Below the pieces are notes generated by a model, which ran no database searches, was not told the origin of the DNA, and was given only the letters and a program-made list of their open reading frames with translations. Below are positions 17,045 to 20,983 of a DNA stretch of 61,156 bases, in pieces. The first letter of the stretch is position 1; every line of letters begins with the position of its first letter. The stretch comes from Akkermansia muciniphila (GTDB taxonomy: Bacteria > Verrucomicrobiota > Verrucomicrobiia > Verrucomicrobiales > Akkermansiaceae), in contig CAMCUY010000007.1 of assembly GCA_945879075.1 (NCBI GenBank), positions 1-61,156 on the forward strand, given 5' to 3'. The translations under genes and the position numbers were made by a program.

Positions 17045-19423
17045 ATGGAGAATTACAAACCTAATCACCATTTCCTCGGCCGCGCCGCCTTGCTAACCAC
17101 CTGCTTGATTGTTTCATCGCTGGCTGGCGAAACTCGGGGAGCCTCAAACCTTGCCGCCAACGAAGTTTCCCGCCGCAGTGCCGCCGTTGACGAAGCGCAG
17201 GAACTCCTCCGGAAAGGCGATGAAGCCTACACGGCTGGCCGTTATGCGGAAGCCGTCGAAGCTTACGCCGGCGCCCGCGATTTGATTCCAAACGCCCCCG
17301 TTTCCGTCGAACTGCGGACCGCAGCCACCGAGCGCTACGCCCAGGCATCCGTCGAACACGCCCGCGTCCTTTCGCGCAATGGCGATGTGGCCGCCGCGAA
17401 AACCGCCGTGGACAAGGTGCTCGTCGAATCCCTCGCCCCTAACCACCCAGGCGCTCTCGCCTTCCGGGCACAACTCGACGATCCGATCCGCACCAATCCC
17501 GCGCTCACCAAGGAGCATGCCAAAGACGTCGATTCCGTGCGCCGCCTGCTCTACACCGCCGAGGGCGCCTTCAATCTCGGGAAATTCGATCAAGCGAAAT
17601 CGACCTACCAAGACGTGCTGCGCATCGACCCGACGAACTCCGCCGCGCGCCGCGGCATGGAGCAGGTCGCCGCCGCGAAAAGCGGCTATCAGAAGTCCGC
17701 TTACGACCACACCCGCGCGGAGATGCTCAGCCAGGTCGACAGCCAGTGGGAACTGCAGGTTCCCACGCCGGATCTCGAAGCGGCGCTTGTCGATCCCGGC
17801 GCGGTGGACTCAGAAGCGAATTTTGTTTCTGTCAGAAACAAACTCGATCGCATCATCATTCCCAAGATCGCGCTGGATCAATCTTCGCTAGATGAAGCGC
17901 TCGATTTCCTGCGCCTGCGTGCCAGTGAGAACGACACTCTGGAAACCGACCCGGCCCGCCGCGGCGTGAATTTCACGGTCAATCTCGGGCCTGCCGATTC
18001 CCCCACCGCCACCCGCGTCCGCAGCTTGCGCTTCGATCTCCGGCTCGCCCAACTCCCGGTCTCGCAGGTCCTCAAGTATCTCACGGAAATCACCCAGACC
18101 TCCTACACGACGGACGATTTCTCGGTGATCATTTCGCCGCTAGGTTCCTCCTCCCAGGAGCTCGTGACCCGGACCTATCGGGTACCTCCCGACTTCATCG
18201 GCAGCATGAGCAACGTCGCCGCCCAACCCGCAGCCGCGGAAGATCTGTTCGGTGCCGCTCCGGCAGACGGCGGCCTTCTGGCCAAGCGCGTCGGCGCGCA
18301 GGAAGCGCTCACCCGGCAAGGTGTGTCTTTCCCCGAAGGGGCCTCCGCGAGCTACATGGCCGCCACTAATACCCTTCGCGTCGTCAATACCGCCACCAAC
18401 CAAGACTACATCGCCCAGATCATCGACGCGCTCACCAAAACGGAACCGGTCATGGTATCCGTCAAAGTGACCATGATCAAGGTGGAGCAAACCCGCCTCC
18501 AGGAACTTGGCTTTGACTGGTTTCTCGAAGGCGGTGGGGGAGACGACCTCATCCTCAGCGGCGGAACCCAAGGCAACGGCCGGGACGCGGGCGATGTGAC
18601 ACCGCAAACCGCCGGCTCGGTCCTCAACCCGATCACCGCCGGAAACCGCAGCGGGGACTATGCGACTTCGGAAAACTCGATTGATAGTCTGATTGCGAAT
18701 CAAGGCGGCCGCCAAGCCAGTGCTCCCGCCCCCGGCGTGCTCAGTATTTACGGCAGGTTCGACGACACCTTCATCCAGGGAATGATGCGCGGCCTCGACC
18801 AAAAGAAAGGCGTCGATATCATGGCCCAGCCTGCCGTCGTAACCCGCAGCGGCCAGGCCACCTCCATCGCCATCGTCCGCGAGTTCATCTATGCCACCGA
18901 ATACGAACCGCCCGAACTCCCCAACAGCGTGAGTGGCGGAGCAGGCACCTCTCCCGTTATCCCGGCCACTCCGACCGCTTTTGACAAACAAGACGTCGGA
19001 ATCACCTTGGAACTAACTCCCCTGGTGGACACTGGCAAACAATACATCTCCGTCACCCTCAATCCCGTCTTCAGCGACTTCGACGGCTTCGTGAATTACG
19101 GCAGCCCCATCAACACCGTCAGCAGCGGGCTTCTGGGCGACGAAACCGTGGAGCTCACGAAAAACACGATTCTCATGCCGATCTTCAGCAAACAGCAGCT
19201 CTCGACCACCGTCGATGTGGCCGACGGCTCGACCGTCGTTCTGGGTGGATTGATGCAGGAATCCGTCGAAAACGTGGAAGACAAAACCCCCGTCCTCGGC
19301 AGCATCCCCATCATCGGGCGCTTTTTCCAATCCAACGCCAAAAAGCCTATCAGCAAGATGGTTCTGTTTACGATCAATGTGGAACTGATGGATCCAACAG
19401 GACGCCGCTACCGGGACCGCTAA
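17045..19423 (+). CDS. Secretin-family outer membrane protein with N-terminal TPR-like region
   Basis: 792 aa. Residues 1-34 look like a signal peptide (RAALLTTCLIVSSLAG core). Residues 50-240 are helical TPR-like repeats (ELLRKGDEAYTAGRYAEAVEAY; AEGAFNLGKFDQAKSTYQDVL). A short N-domain follows and then the secretin barrel, closed by DKTPVLGSIPIIGRFF near residue 746, the type II/III secretin signature. Such proteins form outer-membrane gates for type IV pili or type II secretion; the layout matches the Akkermansia protein Amuc_1098 as I recall it. No pilM/N/O/P or pilotin genes are adjacent; the only partner is the anchored protein downstream. Start ATG 17045 chosen for the signal peptide. 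Confidence 0.88.
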   Translation: MENYKPNHHFLGRAALLTTCLIVSSLAGETRGASNLAANEVSRRSAAVDEAQELLRKGDEAYTAGRYAEAVEAYAGARDLIPNAPVSVELRTAATERYAQASVEHARVLSRNGDVAAAKTAVDKVLVESLAPNHPGALAFRAQLDDPIRTNPALTKEHAKDVDSVRRLLYTAEGAFNLGKFDQAKSTYQDVLRIDPTNSAARRGMEQVAAAKSGYQKSAYDHTRAEMLSQVDSQWELQVPTPDLEAALVDPGAVDSEANFVSVRNKLDRIIIPKIALDQSSLDEALDFLRLRASENDTLETDPARRGVNFTVNLGPADSPTATRVRSLRFDLRLAQLPVSQVLKYLTEITQTSYTTDDFSVIISPLGSSSQELVTRTYRVPPDFIGSMSNVAAQPAAAEDLFGAAPADGGLLAKRVGAQEALTRQGVSFPEGASASYMAATNTLRVVNTATNQDYIAQIIDALTKTEPVMVSVKVTMIKVEQTRLQELGFDWFLEGGGGDDLILSGGTQGNGRDAGDVTPQTAGSVLNPITAGNRSGDYATSENSIDSLIANQGGRQASAPAPGVLSIYGRFDDTFIQGMMRGLDQKKGVDIMAQPAVVTRSGQATSIAIVREFIYATEYEPPELPNSVSGGAGTSPVIPATPTAFDKQDVGITLELTPLVDTGKQYISVTLNPVFSDFDGFVNYGSPINTVSSGLLGDETVELTKNTILMPIFSKQQLSTTVDVADGSTVVLGGLMQESVENVEDKTPVLGSIPIIGRFFQSNAKKPISKMVLFTINVELMDPTGRRYRDR

Positions 19424-19450
19424 TCCCTGATTTCCGCCCACTTTCCGCAA

Positions 19451-20983
19451 ATGCCACCCGTTCCCAGCGAGCCAGAAAAATACTCCATTGAAGAGATGAT
19501 GGAGCGACTGCAGAATTCTCCCATCGGAAATCCCGAGGACGGAGAACTGGTCATCCGTCCGGACGGCAGCCAGGCAATCCGGGTCCGCAAACGGAAACGC
19601 CGGTCCAGCCAACCGCTCAAGGAGAGCCACCAACGGACCCGCCGGGCGCGCATCGTCCAAGTGACTGCCACGATGATCCTGGTTTTCCTGGCAGCCATAA
19701 TCATCGGCGGTGCGATCATCTACGCGAACAGCAAACCGTTCCGCGAGAACCTCATCCGCAAAACCGAACAATCCAGCGGCGCGACCGTCTCGTTGGAGCA
19801 ATTCCGGATGAATCCGAAAACCGCCAACGCCGGAAGCCTCTCGCTCAAATGGCCCGCCGGCAATGTCCTTGAAAGCCTCAAACTCCGCGGACTCGCTGCG
19901 GAAATCTTCCCGTCGAGTTTCCTCGGCAATGCCATGACCGGCGAGGAAATCTCAATCGCCGAGGCCAGCCTTGCACTTCAAATCCCGCAACCCGGCGAAG
20001 TCTCACGCAACTCGCCCGCCCCGGACGGCGACCTCCCCATCCGATTCAATCGCTGCCGCACACCGATTTTCAACCTCACCATTGGGAACCCGAAAACCCC
20101 GCTCCTCAGGCTCCTCAAGTCGGAGGGCTCACTCAAACCGGAAGATACTAACGGCCGAGCCCAGATCAGCCTCTACAAGGGTGACATTGCCATCGCCGGC
20201 TGGCCGAAGCTCCGGCTGGATCGCGCGTTCATCGAGTTTCGCGGCGACGAGGCCGACATCATCAGCCTGCGGGTTCTCCACGAATCCGACAAAGATGGCA
20301 CCTTCGAGCTTTCCGGCACGGTCACTCCCTATCAAGCGGCCCGGATTTCCTCGCTCGATGTCCGCCTCGAATCCTTCGAACTGTCCGGCATCATCGGTCC
20401 CTCGCTTGGGAAAATCTTCTCGGGTAAAATCGATTCCCTGCCCGTCGCCACTTCGAATTTCCTCTCCTTCCGGCCGAGTGAGAATCCATCGCTCACCCTC
20501 GACCTCGCGTTCCGCACGAGTCCCAACTCGCAAATCGAGGTGCAGGGATTTCCCTTCCTCGTCGGTCTCGCGCAAGGCTTGGACGACCCGTGGTTCGAGC
20601 ACCCCGTCTTCGAGGGTGACGCCGGTGGATTGATCCGCCGTGTGGGCGACGGCATCACGCTCCGGGAACTCAATTTGGAAAGCAAGGGACGGATGGCGTT
20701 GCGGGGCGATATTTCGATGGCTCTCAATCAAACCTTGTCCGGAACCCTCCAACTCGGCGTCGCCGAAGCCATGATCAACTCCGCCAAAATCACACGCCTG
20801 AATTCAATGTTTGGTCCGGCCAAGGAGGGTTTCCGCTGGATCACCTTGAAAATCAGCGGTCGGGCCGCGGCTCCCGCTGACAATTTCAAGGAACTCTACA
20901 CCTCCTCCGCAGTACCCCGGAAAACCCCCGCGCCGACCGGCAGTGAGGGCTCAAGCTTCGAGGATCTCACCCGGCCCAAGTGA
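19451..20983 (+). CDS. Membrane-anchored protein downstream of the secretin
   Basis: 510 aa, not recognised with confidence. Residues 1-72 are cytoplasmic, ending in a very basic patch (RKRKRRSSQ). One transmembrane helix follows (about 75-98, MILVFLAAIIIGGAIIYA), and the remainder is periplasmic and beta-rich. Blocks such as ISLYKGDIAIAGWPKL, GTFELSGTVT and LSGTLQLGVAEAMI resemble AsmA/TamB-like or bactofilin-like lamella strands. It lies 27 bases after the secretin and is probably co-transcribed, so it could bridge inner and outer membrane for that secretin or carry lipid. Both roles are inference. Confidence 0.7.
   Translation: MPPVPSEPEKYSIEEMMERLQNSPIGNPEDGELVIRPDGSQAIRVRKRKRRSSQPLKESHQRTRRARIVQVTATMILVFLAAIIIGGAIIYANSKPFRENLIRKTEQSSGATVSLEQFRMNPKTANAGSLSLKWPAGNVLESLKLRGLAAEIFPSSFLGNAMTGEEISIAEASLALQIPQPGEVSRNSPAPDGDLPIRFNRCRTPIFNLTIGNPKTPLLRLLKSEGSLKPEDTNGRAQISLYKGDIAIAGWPKLRLDRAFIEFRGDEADIISLRVLHESDKDGTFELSGTVTPYQAARISSLDVRLESFELSGIIGPSLGKIFSGKIDSLPVATSNFLSFRPSENPSLTLDLAFRTSPNSQIEVQGFPFLVGLAQGLDDPWFEHPVFEGDAGGLIRRVGDGITLRELNLESKGRMALRGDISMALNQTLSGTLQLGVAEAMINSAKITRLNSMFGPAKEGFRWITLKISGRAAAPADNFKELYTSSAVPRKTPAPTGSEGSSFEDLTRPK

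Follow-up and report, generated by a model that had tools for sequence, protein, structure and literature searches.

The window analysed here is a 61,156-nucleotide stretch of Akkermansia muciniphila DNA (assembly GCA_945879075.1, contig CAMCUY010000007.1; our contig C7 of a 2.39 Mb genome in 135 contigs, about 90% complete), and its subject is a pair of adjacent genes, one coding for an outer-membrane secretin and the other for a 510-aa protein. On a single strand, the genes follow one another in the order ribF, secretin, 510-aa protein and ribosome hibernation factor, feoB also lying upstream, and only 27 bp separate the secretin stop from the start of the 510-aa protein. The secretin frame is open from 16994 (TTG) to 19423, with an ATG at 17045 (Table 1). 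In fact, the pair consists of a second secretin of the Amuc_1098 family (secretin B) whose gene is tied to that of an AsmA-like protein across most Akkermansiaceae. A promoter and terminator scan of the locus gave matches at chance level only.

Table 1. Features of the secretin/partner locus, with positions in the window.
Feature	Position	Strand	Details and basis
Amuc_1098-family secretin, paralogue B	17045..19423	+	792 aa; NF042912; AsmA-linked clade
Helical TPR-like N-terminal part of secretin	17144..17749	+	TPR_2, TPR_14; model
Secretin domain (outer-membrane gate)	18794..19390	+	PF00263; Foldseek
AsmA-like partner, single membrane helix, 510 aa	19451..20983	+	AlphaFold2, Foldseek, profile match, adjacency
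Partner's conserved cytoplasmic tail	19451..19642	+	Alignments A1, A2
Partner's transmembrane helix, about residues 66-93	19646..19729	+	Hydropathy, model
Partner's predicted periplasmic beta-groove (AsmA-like) domain, residues 110-488	19778..20914	+	Model, Foldseek, VIA, profile

Secretin B scores 971.6 bits (cut-off 750) against NF042912, the NCBIfam model of the family that it shares with Amuc_1098/PilQ of A. muciniphila, and the two have a TPR-like N-terminus, N-domains and a secretin domain in common. The Pfam secretin model PF00263 matches at 97.1 bits, and the cut-offs of the type IV pilus PilQ model (TIGR02515, 66.5 of 284.35 bits) and of the type II secretion GspD model (TIGR02517, 102.9 of 351.35 bits) are missed. 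TPR_2 and TPR_14 exceed their Pfam cut-offs, the AMIN, STN (N0) and Secretin_N models of Pfam find no match up to E 1, and the region of about residues 34-235 is all-helical in the structure model, with a block pLDDT (predicted local distance difference test) mostly between 72 and 94. This bears out a first reading of the DNA, made from its letters alone (the sequence-only reading), which had proposed a TPR-like N-terminus in place of the AMIN/N0 arrangement. TPR repeats are usual in the Amuc_1098 family, as far as the available part of one report goes (PMC4960237), and are thus not peculiar to secretin B. In Foldseek, the model is best matched by BfpB and PilQ, followed by GspD-type and injectisome secretins.

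Amuc_1098 proper is one of the genes of the Amuc_1098-1102 cluster (PMC5332112, available part). Secretin B lies outside that PilM-like operon, with ribF and the AsmA-like gene as neighbours, and this place together with its NF042912 score makes it a family member by sequence and not the Amuc_1098 orthologue. The operon is present in the same genome, on contig C68, where Amuc_1102-, 1101-, 1100- and 1099-type genes (867.7 bits for the PilM-like, Amuc_1101-type one) are followed by another Amuc_1098-type secretin, secretin A, of which the first 149 codons are present and the rest is lost at the contig end. A genome devoid of PilM/N/O-like genes, which the single full secretin had suggested, is ruled out by this operon and by the start of secretin A. 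At least two strong NF042912 matches occur in 89 of the 97 Akkermansiaceae genomes (counted by us from the tabulated matches). Among the fetched loci, paralogue A follows the order 1102-1101-1100-1099-secretin-coaE-rho (the Amuc genes named by NCBIfam; we take the last two to be coaE and rho), and its copies bear a C-terminal extension that secretin B lacks; paralogue B stands apart from the PilM-like operon and, unlike Amuc_1098, has the AsmA-like gene as neighbour. Thus, the likeness to Amuc_1098 that had been noted from sequence holds at the level of the family and gives way, within it, to two paralogues, Amuc_1098 proper in the PilM operon and the window gene in a separate clade. In these 97 genomes, both paralogues pass the cut-off of the NF042912 'equivalog' with different gene neighbours, so that annotations merge under one name proteins with different partners.

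A tree of 76 secretins, made by a quick method without a mixture model and leaving out 27 of 104 loci, near-copies among them, places the window secretin in a clade of 25 rows, of which 24 are AsmA-linked and one, L068, is labelled solo; by profile search, L068 has the partner too. PilM-operon secretins of the same genus sit elsewhere in the tree. Akkermansia B copies, however, cluster with Akkermansia A copies, possibly a long-branch effect, and a single origin of B is therefore not shown. Tandem Amuc_1098-type secretins also stand behind PilM-like genes in other, more distant Verrucomicrobiota and Lentisphaerota families (L070, L074, L075, L119 and L129), so that duplication of the secretin is old or recurrent.

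To count the linkage we relied on a genome-wide search with the 64-residue tail of the partner and not on the 36-row partner profile (alignment A1), which was made from loci fetched by secretin similarity and whose matches there are circular. Strong tail matches (E 6.2e-7 or better) were found in 86 of the 97 Akkermansiaceae genomes. Sixty-seven of them lie 32-132 bp behind a listed secretin; for 17 of the other 19, the fetched DNA shows a secretin immediately upstream, and the last two are at a contig edge. Every testable tail-bearing partner (84/84) is therefore directly behind a secretin, and the conserved downstream linkage that a gene-neighbourhood check was meant to look for is there. 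The median gap from the end of the secretin profile to the start of the tail is 64 bp and, in 48 fetched loci, secretin B and partner are spaced by -53 to +59 bp, which fits co-translation. The 36-row profile has its best match beside the B secretin in 26 of 32 Akkermansiaceae genomes (coordinates compared by eye), the remaining six having C-terminal matches elsewhere only. Twenty fetched loci with other copies of the secretin (18 in PilM operons, two solitary) have no partner, and neither do the extra secretin copies of six loci from the same order (L110-L115, family f2, presumably Verrucomicrobiaceae-type). The 11 genomes without a strong tail match are G005, G096, G355, G388, G069, G105, G339, G348, G364, G378 and G398; local inspection covered the first four, and in G355 and G388 a divergent partner overlaps or abuts secretin B. 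It is because of the complete adjacency, the gaps, these divergent partners and the absence at the 20 other loci that we read the two genes as a pair. Outside Akkermansiaceae, a search of 256 genomes returned no full-length partner, only partial C-terminal matches in 10 of them. Judged by this sequence distribution the pair is specific to the family Akkermansiaceae, and to call it peculiar to the phylum was too wide.

Conservation at the locus is limited to the two genes of the pair; gene calls in the fetched DNA are the longest non-overlapping frames and make unlabelled neighbours unreliable. In some Akkermansia (L098:12159-12887 and relatives, cluster 20) a DUF374/acyltransferase-like gene comes next after the AsmA-like gene; it stands directly behind secretin B where the AsmA-like gene is absent. 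In G231 and G096 the secretins are long (about 1030 aa); we considered a fusion with the partner and rejected it, since their ends show no sign of one and the profile finds no match.

The partner matches its first description, a follower with one membrane helix and a beta-rich remainder. It has a single hydrophobic stretch at about residues 65-95 (hydropathy up to 2.55), and the AlphaFold2 model, built from 36 sequences (pLDDT 84.4), shows a basic tail of low confidence, then a single long helix (55-92) and a beta-rich domain. In Foldseek, TamB comes first (E 9.3e-4) and is the sole PDB match below E 0.001; searched against PDB sequences, the partner profile gave no match. VIA-align ranks LPD-3, TamB, Vps13, apolipoprotein B and Atg2 highest, at Z 6.5-7.7, and porins right after them; LPD-3, TamB, Vps13 and Atg2 account for six of the seven highest rows. 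These four are all repeating beta-groove lipid-transfer proteins. The partner profile also matches solo AsmA-like proteins of the phylum (99.7%, E 3.9e-26, 377 columns). The partner is predicted to be AsmA-like, with TamB as its closest solved fold. Solo relatives (L176-L184) measure about 430-550 aa, have no tail and are unlinked to secretins in the fetched loci. The tail itself, with the consensus EPEKYSIDEMMERLK...ELVTR.DGSQA.RVRKRKRR in alignments A1 and A2 (the first row of a further one, A3, begins one codon past the ATG), is found at strong E-value in the partner and in no other protein of the 97 genomes.

As the sequence-only reading had said, no pilMNOP, ATPase or pilin gene adjoins the pair. 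Genome-wide, however, the statement fails: besides the C68 operon, the same genome codes for three PilB/GspE-type and two PilT-type ATPases, three PilC-type proteins and 14 pilin-like N-termini, so that the lack of inner-membrane genes holds only locally. On C27 (L216:7650-13064), two PilB/GspE-type ATPase genes in tandem are followed by a PilC-type gene and a pilin-like gene, and the genes upstream look to us like mur/fts. Another contig, C108 (L003, 5758 bp), holds a type II-like (gsp-like) fragment ending in a GspD-type secretin.

To explain these results we tentatively favour the view that the pair is an accessory branch of a type IV pilus/type II secretion-like machinery, handling lipidated cargo by analogy with GspN and GspD. 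In the Acinetobacter baumannii type II system, surface lipoproteins depend on the AsmA-like GspN together with GspD, and soluble cargo does not need GspN, according to the available part of the report (PMC12802150). The Akkermansiaceae pair resembles this system in that an AsmA-like, inner-membrane-anchored protein, as predicted for the partner, is genetically tied to a secretin. It differs in that no gsp operon lies at the locus, secretin B fails the GspD model, and the partner is 510 aa long, has a conserved cytoplasmic tail and fails the Pfam T2SSN model. GspN itself was rejected as present, PF01203 finding no match above cut-off in any of 60 family genomes. With TamB and AsmA-like proteins the partner would share the beta-groove fold and one N-terminal membrane helix; unlike TamB, its operon mate is a secretin and not TamA, and the DUF748 cut-off is missed. 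TamB is also much longer.

On top of the linkage and the predicted fold, for which the data speak directly, we infer the cargo, the contact between the proteins and the energy source. Secretin B would form a gated outer-membrane ring whose TPR domains reach into the periplasm, where the partner, anchored in the inner membrane, would hold its beta-groove. The partner may then shield cargo that is lipidated or hydrophobic in some other way (surface lipoproteins or lipid), or pass it on from the inner membrane to the secretin B ring with its TPR domains, as GspN does for GspD in Acinetobacter, and the partner's conserved tail could dock to a protein of the cytoplasm or the inner membrane. PilB/GspE- and PilC-type proteins coded elsewhere would supply energy and a platform, the pair not working alone; the dispersed pilus and type II parts probably serve it. 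Besides the linkage, the TamB-like fold, the GspN-GspD precedent, the DUF374/acyltransferase-like neighbour and the lack of a recognisable GspN in 60/60 genomes speak for this explanation.

Several observations weigh against this explanation. The VIA scores all lie below Z 8, a range that VIA calls common and that is not decisive alone; Pfam DUF748, which we take to be an AsmA-type model, is far below its cut-off in the partner itself (14.4 of 50 bits) and matches 14 of 36 relatives (best E 4.6e-4), and T2SSN matches one of the 36, at E 0.053. The in/out alternation of hydrophobic residues along the partner strands is not significant (p 0.17), so that the sequence gives no proof of a greasy groove. 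At least three genomes (G005, G096 and G231) have secretin B without the partner and with the next conserved gene directly behind, which implies that B can do something alone. Lastly, 5/72 B loci, from two genera, and 0/76 other secretin copies have PilT-family genes within 12 kb, among the best 150 matches each for secretin and PilT; the other copies are those listed but not assigned to B and were not individually checked, six listed rows without clear assignment are omitted (G341-type rows excepted), and the B set includes G105:C13, its type assumed. The genes in question are at L226, L227, G343:C3:670053-672164, L124 and G105:C13:29735.

This last pattern points towards a pilus and away from lipoprotein export: secretin B may gate a retractable type IV pilus, with paralogue A serving a different filament, and the AsmA-like protein may aid assembly of the secretin in the outer membrane or tend its lipid surroundings. 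PilT-family matches in all 97 genomes, the resemblance of the B model to BfpB and PilQ and the tandem secretins within the PilM operon of other families speak in its favour. Most B loci, however, have no link to PilT, including that of the window genome, whose PilT-type pair is on C40, and the PilM-like operon accompanies paralogue A; we regard this pilus as possible, though less so than the accessory branch. Chance co-transcription of secretin B with an ordinary gene of envelope lipid homeostasis, no joint machine being formed, would agree with the unlinked solo relatives elsewhere in the phylum. We think it unlikely, since all 84 testable copies are linked, the linkage outlasts strong divergence and changed neighbours, and partners with the tail occur beside secretins only. 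About as doubtful is a dedicated Akkermansiaceae export route for lipids or lipoproteins, independent of pilus assembly, in which an AsmA-like bridge in the inner membrane would end on a secretin ring repurposed as the outer-membrane terminus of a bridge-like lipid-transfer protein. The least probable account is the minimal transenvelope machine first imagined, a self-sufficient device of two components. In fact, the pair alone is conserved at the locus, but every class of inner-membrane part is coded elsewhere in the genome and could serve B, from the PilM/N/O-like operon, which has a paralogous secretin of its own, to ATPases, pilins and PilC-type proteins, and neither protein carries an ATPase or other recognised motor domain in the NCBIfam and Pfam models.

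In the literature, the available parts of four papers on the Amuc_1098 cluster (PMC4960237, PMC5332112, PMC9415379 and PMC13119276) make no mention of a second secretin or an AsmA-like partner, and a search limited to best matches returned no description of either in Verrucomicrobia or Akkermansia. What we describe is a conserved pair of a secretin and an AsmA-like protein, specific to one family, that looks like a variant of secretion machinery already known and not like a complete machine. Its interest is moderate until a cargo or phenotype is known. Akkermansia species with both paralogues allow A and B to be separated by single deletions, and the pair offers a test, outside Proteobacteria, of the recent finding that an AsmA-like GspN helps a secretin to move lipoproteins.

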